Source: Acholeplasmatales bacterium
Lineage (GTDB): Bacteria > Bacillota_I > Bacilli_A > Acholeplasmatales > Anaeroplasmataceae
Length of the DNA: 5,639 nucleotides
Reading direction: 5' to 3'
NCBI GenBank assembly: GCA_024681175.1
Contig: JAILBI010000215.1
Span: forward strand, 1-5,639
The notes under the pieces are model-generated. The model saw only the letters and a program-made list of their open reading frames with translations, was not told the DNA's origin and did no database searches. Made by a program: the position numbers and the translations under genes. Positions 126 through 5,639 of the stretch are shown here, piece after piece (positions within the stretch are counted from its first letter, which is position 1; each line of letters begins with the position of its first letter).

Positions 126-159
126 TTGAAAATTATATTAAAAAAGATTAAAATATAAT
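126..159 (+). promoter_or_regulatory. Promoter of the HD-GYP/ohrR unit
   Basis: TTGAAA at 126-131 is followed after 17 bp by TAAAAT at 149-154. A perfect TATAAT also lies at 154-159 but is 22 bp from that -35, so which hexamer is the -10 is open. Either choice puts the transcription start at about 160-167, inside the palindrome at 157-175. Confidence 0.6.
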
Positions 160-175
160 TGTATTTTATACAATT
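157..175. promoter_or_regulatory. Putative OhrR operator at the HD-GYP/ohrR promoter
   Basis: The 19-bp sequence AATTGTATTTTATACAATT has perfect 8-bp arms (AATTGTAT and ATACAATT) around TTT. The half-sites AATTGTA and TACAATT are those known for OhrR operators in Bacillus. Here they are in the outward order with a short spacer, as in the middle of a tandem OhrR site. The element overlaps the -10/start region, a position suited to repression. Since ohrR is in the transcript, autoregulation is inferred. The arms are AT-rich, so part of the match could be compositional, but the same half-sites recur at the gpx promoter. Confidence 0.6.
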
Positions 176-191
176 TATTTAGGAGAATTAT

Positions 192-1535
192 ATGCGTACT
201 AGTGAAGAAATCTATAAAGAGGCGGAGAAAAGAGCCAATAAATTTAATATGTATGGTTTATTATTTATGGCCTTACTTGCCATAATAGTTATTATCTTAG
301 GTGCAACACATTTATTTCCTTTAGATAAAGAAATATTACTAATTACAATGGGTGGTTTAATAATAAATGCAATTGCCCCATTTATGATATATTTATTCCA
401 TGACATTATATTTAAAAGTGAAATAAGCGTTTTTGAAAAATCATTTTATAAAAATTTAATTATCATTATCACTTTTTATATTGTTATAGATTTAGGTATT
501 TCATTATCATTCCATGCAATATTATTATTAGCTGTTCCTATTTTAGTTGCAGCACAATATAAAAGTGATAAAAATGTATTTATATTTATTACAATTGCTT
601 CAATTGTAATGGTTCCAATTACATTATATGGTAATTACTTTTTTGGAAATGTATATGATGCAAATCTATTAAAGCCTTTAACCGCAGCTGAAGCTGAAAA
701 TATTCAAAACAGAATAGATATTGCTACATCTTCACGTATGTGGGAAATTTTCTTTCATTATGCAGTACCAAGAATGATAACACTTGCTGCAATTGAGTAT
801 TTAGCAATTACAATGACAGGAAGAACTACAGAAATGCTACATACTCAAATTGATTTAAATAATAAGGTTCAAGAACAAATGGAAAAAAGAACTAATTTAC
901 AAAGTGAAATTATTTTTCATTTAGCTGATGTTATTGAATCAAGAGATATTGAAACTGGTGAGCATATTAAAAGAACTAAAAGATATGTATCTATCTTAGC
1001 TCATGCAATGCAAAAAGATGATAGATATGAAAAAATATTAACTAAAGATTATGTTCAAAGATTAGAGGAAGCTGCTCCATTACATGATATTGGTAAAATA
1101 GTAGTAAGTGATTTAATATTATGTAAGCCTGGCAAATTAACAGATGAAGAATTTGAAAAAATGAAAATTCATACAACTAAGGGTGGCGAAATAATTAAAA
1201 ATATTTTACATAATATTGATGATAAAAAATTCTTAAATATGGCATATGATGTTGCAACAACGCATCATGAAAAATGGAATGGTAAAGGTTATCCTAATGG
1301 CTTAAAGGAAGAAGAGATTCCATTATCAGGAAGAATAATGGCTGTTGCAGATGTATTTGACGCCTTAGTTGCAGAAAGAGTATATAAAAAGCCAATTCCT
1401 GTAGAAGATGCAATTAATATTATTATTAATGATGCAGGAACTCATTTTGATCCAAATATTATAGAAATATTTAAAAAGGTAACAGTTGAATTTAAAGAAG
1501 CATCTCAAGAAAAACTAATAGATGAGGAAAGATAA
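192..1535 (+). CDS. Membrane-anchored HD-GYP domain phosphodiesterase
   Basis: This is a 447-residue protein starting at an ATG with AGGAG six bases upstream. The N-terminal half is very hydrophobic, with membrane segments at about 20-40, 46-70, 87-122 (probably two), 128-150 and possibly 186-208. A charged, probably coiled-coil linker (about 212-240) leads to a C-terminal HD-GYP domain at about 241-430. Visible signatures are H258 in the first helix, HDIGK (298-302), H327, HHE (358-360), GYP (366-368) and DVFDAL (387-392). The family hydrolyses cyclic di-GMP, some members other cyclic dinucleotides, using a di- or tri-metal centre. The usual HHExxDGxGYP has Asn at 363 instead of Asp; all metal-ligand His/Asp residues I can place are present. 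The membrane half matches no sensor family I can name, but is probably a signal input domain. The gene is one base upstream of ohrR and shares its promoter. Confidence 0.9.
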   Translation: MRTSEEIYKEAEKRANKFNMYGLLFMALLAIIVIILGATHLFPLDKEILLITMGGLIINAIAPFMIYLFHDIIFKSEISVFEKSFYKNLIIIITFYIVIDLGISLSFHAILLLAVPILVAAQYKSDKNVFIFITIASIVMVPITLYGNYFFGNVYDANLLKPLTAAEAENIQNRIDIATSSRMWEIFFHYAVPRMITLAAIEYLAITMTGRTTEMLHTQIDLNNKVQEQMEKRTNLQSEIIFHLADVIESRDIETGEHIKRTKRYVSILAHAMQKDDRYEKILTKDYVQRLEEAAPLHDIGKIVVSDLILCKPGKLTDEEFEKMKIHTTKGGEIIKNILHNIDDKKFLNMAYDVATTHHEKWNGKGYPNGLKEEEIPLSGRIMAVADVFDALVAERVYKKPIPVEDAINIIINDAGTHFDPNIIEIFKKVTVEFKEASQEKLIDEER

Positions 1536-1536
1536 T

Positions 1537-1986
1537 ATGGATAAATATGATTCTTTAAAATTAGGAAACCAATTATGTTTTCCTTTATATGCAGCAGCAA
1601 AAGAAATCACAAGAAAATATAAACCATTTTTAGATGAATTAGATTTAACATATACACAATATATATGTATGATGGTTATGTGGGAACATAAATCATTAAA
1701 TGTTAAAAAATTAGGTGAATATATTTATCTTGATTCAGGAACATTAACACCATTATTAAAAAAATTAGAAGAAAAAGGCTATATTGAAAGAAATAAGAAT
1801 TTAAAGGATGAAAGAAATTTAACAATTTCTATCACTGATAAGGGTTTAAAGCTAAGAGATAAGGCTTTAAGTGTTCCTAAAAGCATGGGAAGCTGTATAT
1901 CTTTAAACCCTGAAGAAGCAACCTTACTATATAAAGTATTATATAAAATATTAAATAATTTAGATGATAATAAATCTCAAGAATAA
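1537..1986 (+). CDS. ohrR: OhrR-type MarR family organic-peroxide-sensing repressor
   Basis: This 149-residue protein has the length and sequence pattern of OhrR, a dimeric winged-helix repressor released from DNA when a reactive cysteine is oxidised by organic hydroperoxides. The sensing Cys is C14 in NQLCFPLY. Y18, Y28 and Y39 match the tyrosines near Cys15 in the Bacillus protein (Y19, Y29, Y40). The recognition helix region LDSGTLTPLLKKLEEKG (65-81) and the wing with DER (91-93) are intact. C120 sits about 106 residues after C14, like the resolving Cys of two-Cys OhrR proteins. I chose the ATG at 1537 over the in-frame ATG at 1522: GAGGA at 1524-1528 is well spaced for 1537, nothing precedes 1522, and the family begins close to this Met. 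The gene follows the HD-GYP stop by one base, so translational coupling is likely. It probably represses its own unit and the downstream gpx unit. Confidence 0.93.
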   Translation: MDKYDSLKLGNQLCFPLYAAAKEITRKYKPFLDELDLTYTQYICMMVMWEHKSLNVKKLGEYIYLDSGTLTPLLKKLEEKGYIERNKNLKDERNLTISITDKGLKLRDKALSVPKSMGSCISLNPEEATLLYKVLYKILNNLDDNKSQE

Positions 1987-2009
1987 AAACTTGAGATTTT
2001 TTATTTTAT
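1972..2009 (+). terminator. Rho-independent terminator overlapping the end of ohrR
   Basis: Perfect 10-bp arms AAATCTCAAG (1972-1981) and CTTGAGATTT (1990-1999) enclose an 8-base loop, followed by a T-rich tract (TTTTTTATTTTAT). The 5' arm is the last codons of ohrR and the stop codon is in the loop. It separates the HD-GYP/ohrR transcript from gpx. Confidence 0.88.
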
Positions 2010-2011
2010 AC

Positions 2012-2040
2012 TTGACTTTTTAAATTAAATTGCATACAAT
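2012..2040 (+). promoter_or_regulatory. Promoter of the gpx/flavoprotein operon
   Basis: TTGACT (2012-2017) is followed after exactly 17 bp by TACAAT (2035-2040), a good sigma-A pair. The start would be near 2047, giving a leader of about 50 bases. The -10 hexamer is itself the left half of the operator at 2035-2049. Confidence 0.78.
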
Positions 2041-2066
2041 GTAATTGTAAATAGATTGCATACAAT
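2029..2066 (+). repeat. 12-bp direct repeat ATTGCATACAAT, two copies 26 bp apart
   Basis: ATTGCATACAAT occurs at 2029-2040 and exactly again at 2055-2066. Each copy contains the TACAAT half-site and resembles the centre of a tandem OhrR site (AATTGTATACAATT) with one change. The repeats bracket the -10 and the predicted start, which suggests two regulator binding positions. Confidence 0.65.
2035..2049. promoter_or_regulatory. Putative primary OhrR operator at gpx
   Basis: TACAATGTAATTGTA has arms TACAAT and ATTGTA around GTA and differs by one base from TACAATT-N-AATTGTA, the inverted-repeat form known for Bacillus OhrR. It covers the whole -10 hexamer. The sequence match, the position and the adjacent ohrR gene together make this the best-supported operator in the window. 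Confidence 0.75.
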
Positions 2067-2095: not shown

Positions 2096-2623
2096 ATGAA
2101 TGATAAATTTTATGAAATAGAAGTATTAAACCAAGATGGTTCTAAACAAGATTTAAGCTCTTATAAAGGAAAGGTATTATTAATTGTTAATACTGCAACA
2201 CGCTGTGGCTTTACACCACAATATAAAGAATTAGAATCTATATATAAAGAATATAAGGATAGAGGATTTGAAATTCTTGATTTTCCTTGTAACCAATTTG
2301 CAAATCAAGCTAAAGGAACAGATGAGGAAATTAATCAATTTTGCTCATTAAAATATGATACTACCTTTAAAAGATTTAAAAAGGTAGAAGTAATTGGTGA
2401 AAACAAATGTGATTTATTTAAATATTTAACAGAGAATGCTAAATATGAGGGTAAAGGATTTAAGATGGGCTTAATTAATAAAATTAGTAAAGCTAAGGAT
2501 GATGAAGTTAGATGGAATTTTACTAAATTTTTAATTGATAAGGAAGGAAATCTTATTAAAAGATTTGAGCCTGTAAATAAATTAGAAGATGTTAAAGAAG
2601 CAATTGAAAATCTTTTAAAATAA
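2096..2623 (+). CDS. gpx: Glutathione peroxidase family peroxidase, Cys type, probably thioredoxin-dependent
   Basis: This 175-residue cytoplasmic thioredoxin-fold peroxidase starts at an ATG with AGGAGG seven bases upstream. The peroxidatic cysteine is C37 in NTATRCGFTPQY and is encoded by TGT, so it is not a selenoprotein. FPCNQF (63-68) and WNFTKF (140-145) are the family signatures. The expected catalytic tetrad is C37, Q71, W140 and N141. C83 (QFCSLKY) matches the resolving cysteine of two-Cys GPx enzymes, which are reduced by thioredoxin rather than glutathione. This fits bacteria that often lack glutathione and the flavoprotein encoded next. The usual GxQEPG after NQF reads ANQAKG here. 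The length is somewhat above the usual 155-165 because of an insert around 118-138. The gene is first in an operon whose promoter carries OhrR-type operators, so induction by organic peroxides is inferred. Confidence 0.92.
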   Translation: MNDKFYEIEVLNQDGSKQDLSSYKGKVLLIVNTATRCGFTPQYKELESIYKEYKDRGFEILDFPCNQFANQAKGTDEEINQFCSLKYDTTFKRFKKVEVIGENKCDLFKYLTENAKYEGKGFKMGLINKISKAKDDEVRWNFTKFLIDKEGNLIKRFEPVNKLEDVKEAIENLLK

Positions 2624-2664: not shown

Positions 2665-3522
2665 ATGTTTGATACAATTATAATTGGTTCAGGTCCTGCA
2701 GGATTATCTGCTGCATTAACCTTAAAGCAATTAAATAAAAATATATTATGGTTAGGTAAAAAGGATTTATCTTTTAAAATAAATAGTGCTGAAAAAATTA
2801 GAAATTATCCTGGTTTAATAGAAGTATCAGGTAAAGAGATGAGAGATGTTTTTTTAGAACAAATTAAAAAGATGGATTTAGAAATTGTAGATAAGCAAGT
2901 AACTGGTGTATATCCACAAACAGGCAAAATAAGTGTTTTATGTGGATCTGAGGCTTATGAAGCTAAAACAATTATTTTAGCTGTTGGAGTTGAAACAGTT
3001 AAGCCAATTGCTGGTGAGCTTGAAAATGTTGGGCAGGGTGTTTCATATTGTGCTACATGTGATGGATTCTTATATAAAGGAAAAGAAATATTTGTTTATG
3101 CAACAAATAAAAATTATGAGCATGAAGCTAAATATTTAGCTACACTTGCAGCTAAGGTATATTATTGTCCTATTTATAAGGATATTGATATAAATATGGC
3201 TAATGTTGAAATTATAAATGTTAGACCTAAAGAAATTAAAAGAAATGGTTTAAGAAAAAAAGATATTATTTTATCAGATGATAAGGCAATAACTGTAGAT
3301 GGTATATTTATGCTAAAGGATGCAGTATCACCAAGTGTACTTGTTCCTGGCATTGAAACAGATAATAACCATATTAAGGTAGATAGGCAATGCAAAACAA
3401 ATTATGATGGTATATTTGCAGCAGGAGATTGTACGGGCAGACCTTATCAATATGCAAAAGCAGCAGGAGAAGGAAATGTTTGTGCTCACAGTGTAGTTGC
3501 ATATTTAAACACAAATAAATAA
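2665..3522 (+). CDS. Thioredoxin-reductase-like flavoprotein lacking NADPH motifs (candidate ferredoxin-dependent FFTR)
   Basis: This 285-residue flavoprotein has the FAD motif GSGPAG (8-13), the redox pair CATC (129-132, followed by DG) and the second FAD motif FAAGDC (251-256) with a conserved C-terminal helix. That is the fold of bacterial low-Mr thioredoxin reductase. Where NADPH-dependent enzymes have GGGxSAxEEA, this protein reads YATNKNYEHEA (145-155). Where they have HRRxxxR, it reads CPIYKD (168-173). Both pyridine-nucleotide signatures are therefore absent although the domain is present. The same losses, and a length slightly below the usual 305-320, are known in ferredoxin-dependent flavin thioredoxin reductases (FFTR) of clostridia. 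I chose ATG 2665, with GGAGGTG five bases upstream; an in-frame TTG at 2647 would put that ribosome binding site inside the gene. It lies 41 bases after gpx with no terminator between, so it is co-transcribed and probably supplies the peroxidase with electrons through a thioredoxin. Confidence 0.85.
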   Translation: MFDTIIIGSGPAGLSAALTLKQLNKNILWLGKKDLSFKINSAEKIRNYPGLIEVSGKEMRDVFLEQIKKMDLEIVDKQVTGVYPQTGKISVLCGSEAYEAKTIILAVGVETVKPIAGELENVGQGVSYCATCDGFLYKGKEIFVYATNKNYEHEAKYLATLAAKVYYCPIYKDIDINMANVEIINVRPKEIKRNGLRKKDIILSDDKAITVDGIFMLKDAVSPSVLVPGIETDNNHIKVDRQCKTNYDGIFAAGDCTGRPYQYAKAAGEGNVCAHSVVAYLNTNK

Positions 3523-3526
3523 AAAT

Positions 3527-3560
3527 AAAACCAACTAGATATCTAGTTGGTTTTTTTAAA
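3527..3560. terminator. Bidirectional terminator between convergent genes
   Basis: A perfect palindrome with 14-base arms spans 3527-3554 (core CCAACTAGAT/ATCTAGTTGG). It has T7 at 3551-3557 on the + strand and a T-rich tract on the minus strand (complement of 3517-3530). It closes the gpx/flavoprotein operon from the left and the phosphofructokinase gene from the right. Confidence 0.92.
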
Positions 3561-3563
3561 TTC

Positions 3564-4814
3564 TTATTTCTTATCTACTAATATTTTCTTTAATTTAGCA
3601 AATCTAGGAAGACCTTCTTCGAGTGGAGCTTTACAGTCTCCTTGAATCAATGGTAATGCATAATCAATATAATCTTGTGTTAATCCTGTACCATCCTTTG
3701 TAATCCATTCAAGTGGTACTTTCTTTTCAGCGTTTGCAACCTCTTCAAGTGGAACTCTAATATATTCACAAGAATATTTACCATCTTTCATGACTCTCTT
3801 AAAGCCAATCATATAATCTGTAACACCTTCGCATGCAGCCTTAACAGCTTCAGCACCAGCATTAAATGCTTCCTCAACATCAACCTTAGATGCTAAATGT
3901 TGAGCACAACGTTGTAATAATGAAAATTCAATTGGTCTTACTTTAACATTTAATCTATTTTTTAATAAATCAGCTAAAACAGAAGCAGTACCACCCATTT
4001 GCTTATGACCAAATGCATCTACTGAAATGTCTGAAACTAATTCTGGTACATATTTACCATCCTTAGTTTTAATACCTTCAGATACTGCGATAATAACATT
4101 ACCATTATTTTCTTTGTATTTCTTTTCTACATCTGCGTAAAATTTTTCAAGGTCAAATGGAATTTCTGGTAAATAAATTAAATCTGGACCACAGCCTTTA
4201 TAAACAGCAAGCTGTGCAGCAGCAGTAAGCCAACCAGCATTTCTTCCCATAACCTCAACTACTGATACCATTGGTGTATCATATACTGTTGCATCACATT
4301 TTAATTCCATAAATGTTGTCGCAACATATTTAGCTGCAGAAGCATAACCAGGACAATGATCTGTTACAACAAGGTCATTATCAATTGTTTTAGGAACACC
4401 CATACAGAAGCATTTATAATCATTGTTTTTGAAGAATTTAGATATTTTATTACATGTGTCCATTGAATCATTTCCACCATTGTAGAAGAAATATCTAATA
4501 TTATATTTTTTAAATACTTCTAAAAGCTTTCTATATTCAGAATCATCTTCTTCAAGCTTTTTAAGCTTATATCTTACTGAGCCTATTGAAGAAGAAGGTG
4601 TTGTTTTTAAAAGTTCTAATTCCTTCATATCTTCTTGATTTATATCATAGAATTCCTCATTAAGAATACCTCTAATACCATGGGCTGCACCATAAACTTT
4701 TGTGATATTTTTTTGTTTTAATGCCTCAATAAAAACACCAGCTGCAGAAGCGTTGATAACTGATGTAGGACCACCTGATTGTCCAATAATTGCGGCTCCT
4801 TTTAAATCGTTCAT
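3564..4814 (-). CDS. 6-phosphofructokinase, pyrophosphate-dependent type
   Basis: This 416-residue cytoplasmic enzyme would phosphorylate fructose 6-phosphate to the 1,6-bisphosphate, reversibly if PPi is the donor. Visible motifs are GQSGGP (11-16), GGNDS (113-117), PKTIDND (141-147) with catalytic D145, and MGRNAGW (189-195). Donor choice in this family follows two positions: ATP enzymes have Gly in GGDG and Gly in GTIDND, while PPi enzymes have Asp and Lys. Here they are D116 and K142, both the PPi state. The length fits the roughly 400-residue PPi-PFK clade and exceeds the 320 of PfkA. The ATG has AAGGAGG (complement of 4825-4831) ten bases upstream, slightly far. It is transcribed divergently from pfkA and converges on the gpx operon. 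The donor call rests on residues, not an assay; some family members with these residues differ in donor range. Confidence 0.9.
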   Translation of the reverse strand: MNDLKGAAIIGQSGGPTSVINASAAGVFIEALKQKNITKVYGAAHGIRGILNEEFYDINQEDMKELELLKTTPSSSIGSVRYKLKKLEEDDSEYRKLLEVFKKYNIRYFFYNGGNDSMDTCNKISKFFKNNDYKCFCMGVPKTIDNDLVVTDHCPGYASAAKYVATTFMELKCDATVYDTPMVSVVEVMGRNAGWLTAAAQLAVYKGCGPDLIYLPEIPFDLEKFYADVEKKYKENNGNVIIAVSEGIKTKDGKYVPELVSDISVDAFGHKQMGGTASVLADLLKNRLNVKVRPIEFSLLQRCAQHLASKVDVEEAFNAGAEAVKAACEGVTDYMIGFKRVMKDGKYSCEYIRVPLEEVANAEKKVPLEWITKDGTGLTQDYIDYALPLIQGDCKAPLEEGLPRFAKLKKILVDKK

Positions 4815-4851
4815 ATATATAATTCCTCCTTGAATCGTTTTTTAATCATTC

Positions 4852-4889
4852 ATTATAATCATTTTAAGTAAAAAAAGGCTTAAAGTCAA
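4852..4889 (-). promoter_or_regulatory. Promoter of the PPi-type phosphofructokinase gene
   Basis: On the minus strand TTGACT (4889-4884) is followed after 17 bp by TAAAAT (4866-4861). A perfect TATAAT also occurs at 4857-4852 but is 26 bp from that -35. The start would be near 4850-4855, or about 10 bases further downstream for the second hexamer. Confidence 0.6.
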
Positions 4890-4900
4890 GACAATAAGCC
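4870..4900 (-). terminator. Terminator-like hairpin upstream of the minus-strand phosphofructokinase
   Basis: Read on the minus strand, GGCTTA (4900-4895) pairs with TAAGCC (4882-4877) across a 12-base loop and is followed by TTTTTTT, the form of a weak intrinsic terminator. It overlaps the -35 TTGACT, so it could act only on transcripts starting further upstream. Coincidence is possible because the stem is only 6 bp. Confidence 0.35.
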
Positions 4901-4918
4901 ATATTTAGGAAAGTTAAA

Positions 4919-4935
4919 CGCATACATTGTGTGCG
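4919..4935. promoter_or_regulatory. Inverted repeat between the divergent phosphofructokinase promoters
   Basis: CGCATACATTGTGTGCG has 8-bp arms (CGCATACA/TGTGTGCG) with one mismatch around a single T. It is locally GC-rich in very AT-rich DNA. It lies 30 bp upstream of the minus-strand -35 and about 39 bp upstream of the pfkA -35, a place suited to a shared regulator. I do not recognise the operator family. Confidence 0.35.
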
Positions 4936-4973
4936 ATTTTTATTTATAAATAAATACTTTGTAAATAATCATA

Positions 4974-5001
4974 TTGAAGTCATATTTTTTTATGATATAA
5001 T
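4974..5001 (+). promoter_or_regulatory. Promoter of pfkA
   Basis: TTGAAG (4974-4979), a 16-bp spacer and TATAAT (4996-5001), with TG one base before the hexamer (4993-4994), form an extended -10. The start would be near 5008, giving a leader of about 29 bases. Confidence 0.75.
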
Positions 5002-5016
5002 AACAAACGGGTATTT

Positions 5017-5035
5017 TTTATCTTGAGGTGATAAA
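5017..5035 (+). promoter_or_regulatory. pfkA ribosome binding site in a hairpin loop
   Basis: The Shine-Dalgarno GAGGTGAT (5025-5032) begins four bases before the start region of ATG 5037. TTTATC (5017-5022) and GATAAA (5030-5035) are perfect complements and would place TTGAGGT in a 7-base loop. The SD decides the start; the hairpin is weak (one GC pair) and its role is uncertain. Confidence 0.4.
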
Positions 5036-5036
5036 C

Positions 5037-5639
5037 ATGAAAATTGGAGTTTTAACCTCGGGTGGTGACGCACCTGGAATGAATGCCGCAATTCGTTCAA
5101 TTGTAAGATCCGCAATTCAATCAGGAGATACCATTTATGGTATTTATGATGGTTATAGGGGTCTTGTTGAAGGAAAATTTAAAGAATTTACTAGAAAAGA
5201 TGTTTCTGAAATTCTTAATAAGGGTGGCACAATTTTAGGTACAGCGAGATTACCCGAATTCAAGTACGAGCAGGTACGTGAAATCGCAGTTAAAAATCTT
5301 ACCAAAGAAGGAATAGAAGCTTTAATATGTATCGGTGGTGATGGTACATACCAAGGTGCGATGCGTCTTCATGAAATGGGCGTTAAGACAATTGGTGTTC
5401 CAGGAACTATTGATAATGATATTAAATCTACTGAATTTACAATTGGCTTTTCTACAGCGTTAAATACTGCATGTGAAGCAATTGATAAATTAAGAGATAC
5501 TTCATCATCTCACCAACGTTGTTCTATTATTGAAGTAATGGGAAGACATTGTGGAGATTTAGCTTTATATTCTGGTTTATGCTGTGGTGCTGAATATATT
5601 ATCACAGCTGAGACAGGACTTGATGAAGAAAAACTTCTT
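5037..5639 (+). CDS. pfkA: ATP-dependent 6-phosphofructokinase (5' part; runs off the window)
   Basis: The first 201 codons are present, still open at the window edge; PfkA is about 320 residues, so roughly two thirds is here. It commits fructose 6-phosphate to glycolysis with ATP. The N-terminus [20 protein letters not shown] is nearly that of the E. coli enzyme. GGDGT (100-104) and GTIDND (123-128) carry Gly at both donor-deciding positions (G103, G123), the ATP type. Catalytic D126, R161 and MGR (168-170) for sugar phosphate binding are present. R20 and R24 lie in the N-terminal helix that helps bind the allosteric effector in E. coli PfkA. GAGGTGAT precedes the ATG. It is transcribed divergently from the PPi-type enzyme. 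In many Firmicutes pyk follows pfkA, but that region is outside the window. Confidence 0.97.

Follow-up and report, generated by a model that had tools for sequence, protein, structure and literature searches.

A candidate ferredoxin-type thioredoxin reductase encoded beside a glutathione peroxidase-family gene in a family of Bacilli

From where would a bacterium draw the electrons for peroxide removal if the reductase encoded next to its peroxidase has lost the motifs that bind NADPH? The question is raised by a 5,639-nucleotide stretch of DNA from an Acholeplasmatales bacterium (contig JAILBI010000215.1 of assembly GCA_024681175.1; the whole analysed stretch is called the window below), in which a gene for a thioredoxin reductase (TrxB)-like protein of 285 residues (aa) follows gpx, a gene of the glutathione peroxidase (GPx) family. 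We propose, with a probability of about 0.7, that this protein is a clostridial-type FFTR, the ferredoxin-dependent kind of thioredoxin reductase, that it would pass electrons from ferredoxin to thioredoxin and thence to the GPx under the control of an OhrR-type regulator, and that it would serve the cell as a general reductase.

Identity of the reductase

The gene and the three sites on which its assignment turns are the following.

2665..3522, forward strand: fftr, FFTR-type thioredoxin reductase gene, 285 aa, assigned by its ranking against the PDB and by a tree clade shared with 6gna and 6gnc
3049..3060, forward strand: CATC redox disulfide, residues 129-132, invariant across 30 aligned sequences
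3097..3129, forward strand: site of the NADPH glycine motif GxGxxA, which reads YATNKNYEHEA, residues 145-155
3166..3183, forward strand: site of the HRRxxxR motif, which reads CPIYKD, residues 168-173

The open reading frame is intact and its ATG start is preceded by GGAGGTG. Both FAD motifs are intact as well (GSGPAG and AAGDCTG), and the GxGxxA and HRRxxxR motifs are both lost, which places the protein outside the NADPH type; the motif readings agree with the initial annotation of the window. When the protein was aligned with 29 homologues (a sample of the 120 listed among 7,994 matches), G8, G10, G13, C129, C132 and D255 proved invariant, so that the motif pattern is more than chance. On viral contigs, two loci match the protein at 29-34% identity.

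In a comparison with the PDB, its best matches are the FFTRs of Clostridium acetobutylicum (6gna, 6gnc and 6gnd; identity about 43-44%), at 245-250 bits, and the next best entry, 7aaw, reaches 115 bits. With TIGR01292, the NCBIfam thioredoxin reductase model, it scores 176.4 bits, below the cut-off of 343.45. A tree of 59 proteins, built by a quick method with SH-aLRT supports and no bootstrap, puts it in a clade of 35 rows together with 6gna and 6gnc (SH-aLRT 99); none of the ten NADPH-type rows falls within that clade. A second clade of non-NADPH TrxB adjoins it (support 81), in which the HRR site mostly reads FTNG or FTDG. An AF2 model (pLDDT 83.5, pTM 0.68) has a domain orientation that is FO-like, and its top Foldseek matches are six FFTR chains. 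Because of the motif losses, the PDB ranking and the tree position, membership of the known clostridial-type FFTR family is supported. The initial annotation had named the protein an FFTR candidate and proposed alignment as one of the checks; ranking and tree group it with the characterised FFTRs, apart from the NADPH-type enzymes, and the identification is supported.

The same data bear on the idea that the protein is still a pyridine-nucleotide enzyme, with a remodelled binding pocket. Both NADPH motifs are gone, the score of 176 bits lies far from the model's cut-off of 343 and the tree position is with the FFTRs, which leaves this reading a very small chance. It is also quite unlikely that flavodoxin, some further one-electron carrier or another flavoprotein supplies the same enzyme with its electrons. 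A sequence does not reveal its donor, and the NADPH-like domain of the window protein is divergent; against this, the nearest characterised proteins are ferredoxin-dependent, and ferredoxin-domain proteins are present in all ten close genomes. In nine of these they are frames of 56-88 aa, and in six there are also ferredoxin-domain frames of 915-1209 aa, which would match pyruvate-ferredoxin oxidoreductase in size.

The peroxidase, its regulator and the operon in relatives

Upstream of fftr the window holds the following features.

2096..2623, forward strand: gpx, glutathione peroxidase-family gene, 175 aa, with Cys37 and Cys83; PF00255 (GSHPx domain) 128.7 bits, cut-off 27
1537..1986, forward strand: ohrR, gene of an OhrR-type MarR regulator, 149 aa, with Cys14; best PDB match 1z91, an OhrR, 143 bits
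2012..2040, forward strand: promoter-like TTGACT-17-TACAAT before gpx, conserved across all 7 of the upstream regions aligned
2035..2049, forward strand: palindromic box TACAATGTAATTGTA (TACAAT-N3-ATTGTA) over the -10 of the gpx promoter, proposed OhrR operator
149..163, forward strand: weaker box, one mismatch, before an HD-domain gene and ohrR

As gpx ends at 2623, 41 bases separate it from fftr, the distance first annotated. The peroxidase does not reach the NCBIfam GPx equivalog models (161.6 versus 270 bits, and 114.2 versus 207.3), and its closest solved match is 3cmi, yeast Hyr1. Its Cys37 and Cys83 align with the Hyr1 cysteines that we take to be the peroxidatic and the resolving one. 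Cys37, Cys65 and Cys83 are conserved in all 31 distinct GPx sequences of the family, the window's included. Because of the Hyr1 alignment and these conserved cysteines, the protein fits a thioredoxin-dependent peroxidase by its sequence type, in line with the thioredoxin route in the initial annotation.

The family, which includes G092, G010 ('Candidatus Avacholeplasma') and G008 ('uncultured Anaeroplasmataceae bacterium') and lies in the class of G006 ('uncultured Bacilli bacterium'), was sampled in 55 genomes. A match to the FFTR at E<=1e-60 occurs in 16 of the 55, and in two of 296 genomes drawn from the class. In 7 of the 16, gpx lies directly upstream of fftr (G510, G528, G511, G506, G526, G521 and G519), and in all of these except G519, where the order is gpx-fftr-ohrR, the thioredoxin gene trxA comes first, giving trxA-gpx-fftr. 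Five of these six operons have ohrR upstream, with one gene between ohrR and trxA in G510 and two in G528; in the sixth, G521, the contig ends upstream of the operon and the genome gives no OhrR match. The parts are also found in other arrangements. In G092 and G520 a single locus holds ohrR, trx and gpx, and fftr lies apart, at a phosphofructokinase locus. In G505, G518 and G525 the order is gpx-trxB-trx-ohrR, and the TrxB belongs to the second non-NADPH clade. Over the family as a whole, gpx adjoins some trxB in 10 of the 28 genomes with a GPx match.

Could the GPx use glutathione or another small thiol, with fftr next to it by chance or for shared regulation only? The absence of trxA from the window and the separation of fftr from gpx in many relatives speak for this. 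Against it stand the resolving-cysteine position, which all 31 distinct GPxs of the family retain, and at least ten family genomes with trxA directly before gpx (the six above, G092, G520, G512 and G522). We consider it very unlikely. As to the original claim that the peroxidase is fed by way of a thioredoxin, trxA heads the operon in six relatives, and the window has no trxA of its own.

Cys14, Tyr28 and Tyr39 of the regulator are kept in 25 of 25 distinct OhrR sequences of the family (window included) and Cys120 in 21; we assume for the first three the roles of the reactive N-terminal cysteine and the two tyrosines of OhrR within the MarR fold. The window has no excess of sites of the TTGACT-TACAAT type (41, versus 39.9 in shuffles). 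The exact box, TACAATgtaATTGTA, has one match in the window and none in 200 shuffles; with up to two mismatches allowed there are four, a number that 16 of the 200 shuffles reach and that is within chance. In six relatives the same promoter has the box in a form that differs by one mismatch, TACAATRTAATTGCA. We read it as a putative OhrR operator because a box of the TACAAT-N3-ATTGTA kind is presumably the operator type of Bacillus subtilis OhrR. The peroxide control of gpx and fftr that was supposed at first is likely, by way of the OhrR-type regulator, given the regulator gene and the conserved promoter and box.

The remaining features of the window are these.

192..1535, forward strand: gene of an HD-domain protein (HD_5; HD-GYP-like) with a hydrophobic N-terminal half, ending one base before ohrR
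1972..1999, forward strand: terminator-like hairpin at the end of ohrR
3527..3554, both strands: terminator-like hairpin after fftr
within 3564..5639: pyrophosphate-dependent phosphofructokinase (PPi-PFK) gene on the opposite strand, then the start of a second phosphofructokinase (PFK) gene

The HD-domain gene was not found at this position in any of the relatives' loci that were read. In the window and at L117, L119, L121, L124 and L125, fftr adjoins the PPi-PFK gene, with phosphofructokinase next, both where gpx is a neighbour of fftr and where it is not.

A general or a dedicated reductase

The initial annotation held the FFTR to be dedicated to the GPx, a reading under which another thioredoxin reductase would be in general use. 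It is suggested by the operon itself, which joins the gene to gpx and a peroxide-type regulator, and by passages of a study that describe several TrxB copies as usual in Clostridia (PMC10880999). The family genomes argue otherwise. The cut-off of the thioredoxin reductase model is passed by no protein in the 55, as against 12 of the 14 control genomes, and a weaker match is present in 52 of the 55. Among 59 TrxB-like proteins of the family, a tally that leaves out frames outside 230-345 aa (second matches of about 420 aa among them), L087 (the same gene as L125) and L088 (another family), CxxC occurs without either NADPH motif in 50 and together with just the glycine motif in 7; 1 has none of these, 1 has both motifs and no CxxC, and not one combines CxxC with both motifs. 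In four of the six operon genomes (G506, G511, G521 and G526) the FFTR is the sole TrxB-like match at E<=1e-20; G510 and G528 have one further match each, of about 420 aa and 86-91 bits, and the second match of about 420 aa in L233 lacks a CATC-like site. The Fe-S type of thioredoxin reductase (PF02943) was not found in the ten close genomes. Because no family TrxB has CxxC with both motifs and the FFTR stands alone in four of six operon genomes, it is probably a general thioredoxin reductase whose gene is under peroxide control. We therefore rejected dedication to the GPx as the leading reading, and regard it as unlikely.

Two further groups of TrxB-like proteins were seen in the family. Those of the second non-NADPH clade have about 281-289 aa, CATC or CAIC, and FTNG or FTDG in place of the HRR motif; their genes lie beside trx in many genomes (L205, L209, L218, L220 and L228), and the loci with the order gpx-trxB-trx-ohrR are L196, L200 and L201. 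Five other proteins (L190, L191, L192, L193 and L194) keep GGGNSA, have lost HRR and carry CVAC, and their nucleotide preference is possibly altered.

The scheme that we favour, a general FFTR that also feeds the peroxidase, would work as follows. Reduced ferredoxin would give single electrons to the FAD of the FFTR, the FAD would reduce the CATC disulfide, and this in turn would reduce thioredoxin, which would re-reduce the Cys37-Cys83 disulfide of the GPx after each removal of peroxide. The thioredoxin would come from a gene outside the window; in the six relatives the operon begins with a thioredoxin gene. The OhrR-type regulator would repress the gpx-fftr promoter through the box over the -10 and, with Cys14 oxidised, release it, so that peroxidase and reductase would rise together. 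Ferredoxin as donor, thioredoxin as link, the binding of the box and the general role are what we infer here from sequence comparison.

Several observations weigh against this scheme. The deepest split of the TrxB tree has a support of only 66, and the AF2 model superposes on NADPH enzymes as well as on FFTRs; with this overlay and its FO-like orientation it was dropped as an arbiter of the NADPH pocket. The regulator scores 171.4 bits with NCBIfam NF052638, under the cut-off of 200, and we name its gene only 'OhrR-type' for that reason. In the family, fftr has no adjoining gpx in 9 of the 16 genomes that bear it, and these genomes are drafts, which makes absences in them soft. Of 391 genomes of the Clostridia class, an FFTR-like match occurs in 64, a GPx match in 105 and the two together in 22, where independence would give 17. 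The two genes are neighbours in 3 of these 22, as fftr-trx-gpx-ohrR in G004 and G678 and as fftr-gpx in G708. The linkage in this class is uncommon but recurrent, and its recurrence with ohrR in G004 and G678 counts in favour of the scheme. A scan of 80 named loci found a GPx neighbour in at least one (L028, which is G004), a lower bound, since another frame was sometimes taken as the FFTR.

The window itself supplies the other points on this side. Its operon has no trxA, so thioredoxin must come from elsewhere. In the 109 bases between ohrR and gpx, the promoter and box that the relatives have upstream of trxA are joined to the ribosome-binding site of gpx, and loss of trxA in the window lineage is the simplest reading. 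G510 and G528 share the window's gene order and are close to it in PPi-PFK (91% identity), the PFK part (83%), GPx (83-84%) and OhrR (87-89%). The window FFTR is just 63-64% identical to theirs (L119 and L121), which are 82% identical to each other, and in the tree it stands with G092 and G520 (support 89), whereas the six operon genomes form a clade that does not include it. It may thus descend from a different gene than the FFTRs of G510 and G528 do, and it looks either replaced or fast-changing. A domain-specific change after the loss of trxA was considered and set aside: the FAD part is 65-72% and the disulfide part 54-62% identical to those of eight relatives, with no clear signal. The protein database entry P0007 matches the window-type FFTR over its first 130 residues or so and the G092 type at 100% over the rest, with the switch near the CATC region; it is either an assembly chimera or a recombinant.

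Extended to the family, the scheme would describe Bacilli whose only thioredoxin reductase is a ferredoxin-dependent FFTR, in several members within an OhrR-controlled trx-gpx operon, so that peroxide removal and general disulfide reduction would both draw on the ferredoxin pool with peroxide as the switch; in the window lineage, trxA would have left the operon and the FFTR been replaced or diverged fast. We put this forward tentatively, at somewhat less than even odds. If it is true, a thiol peroxidase would be tied directly to the ferredoxin pool and would remove peroxide without need for NADPH, and the FFTRs would extend to a family of Bacilli that seems to rely on them as its main thioredoxin reductase. 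Since the module also occurs with its genes rearranged, and with a non-NADPH TrxB of either of two kinds, there is a choice of hosts for testing the proposal.

Relation to known systems

FFTRs and their loss of the NADPH motifs are already known. The C. acetobutylicum enzymes (6GNA, 6GNC and 6GND) resemble the window FFTR in sequence, length, CATC site and lost motifs; they come from another host class, and the operon with ohrR and gpx is described here for the window FFTR. The same species presumably also has a trx-trxR-gpx cluster, CAC1547-1549, of the same three enzyme types side by side, which would be induced by oxygen and under PerR rather than OhrR. In the OhrR regulon of B. subtilis, the regulator acts on a box of the TACAAT-N3-ATTGTA kind and the target is Ohr; regulator and box are alike in kind, and the window differs in its peroxidase, since a GPx accompanied by a reductase gene takes the place of Ohr.

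No published account of an OhrR-gpx-FFTR operon, or of an FFTR in Bacilli, was found in titles, the starts of abstracts and some passages, a search for the most part outside subscription papers. The OhrR-linked operon, and an FFTR as the main TrxB of a Bacilli family, look new. Passages of a 2024 survey of 349 genomes give one TrxB for Bacilli and report that it is chiefly Negativicutes and Clostridia that have the non-NADPH types (PMC10880999).

The physiological role that the initial annotation thought distinct is so at most in the link between OhrR and GPx, since a stress-induced FFTR operon is described, in passages of the same paper, for Clostridioides difficile (PMC10880999). There trxA1-trxB1 encodes an FFTR-type TrxB under stress induction, as we propose for the window; it differs in its control by a sigma factor and in the NADPH-type TrxBs of the same cell, and those passages mention neither GPx nor OhrR. 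An FFTR as sole thioredoxin reductase also has a counterpart in some cyanobacteria, among them Gloeobacter violaceus, according to passages of a second paper (PMC12796991). The G. violaceus enzyme is of the ferredoxin type, like the window FFTR, but ends in a cyanobacterial tryptophan tail, whereas the last 15 residues of the window protein contain no tryptophan.
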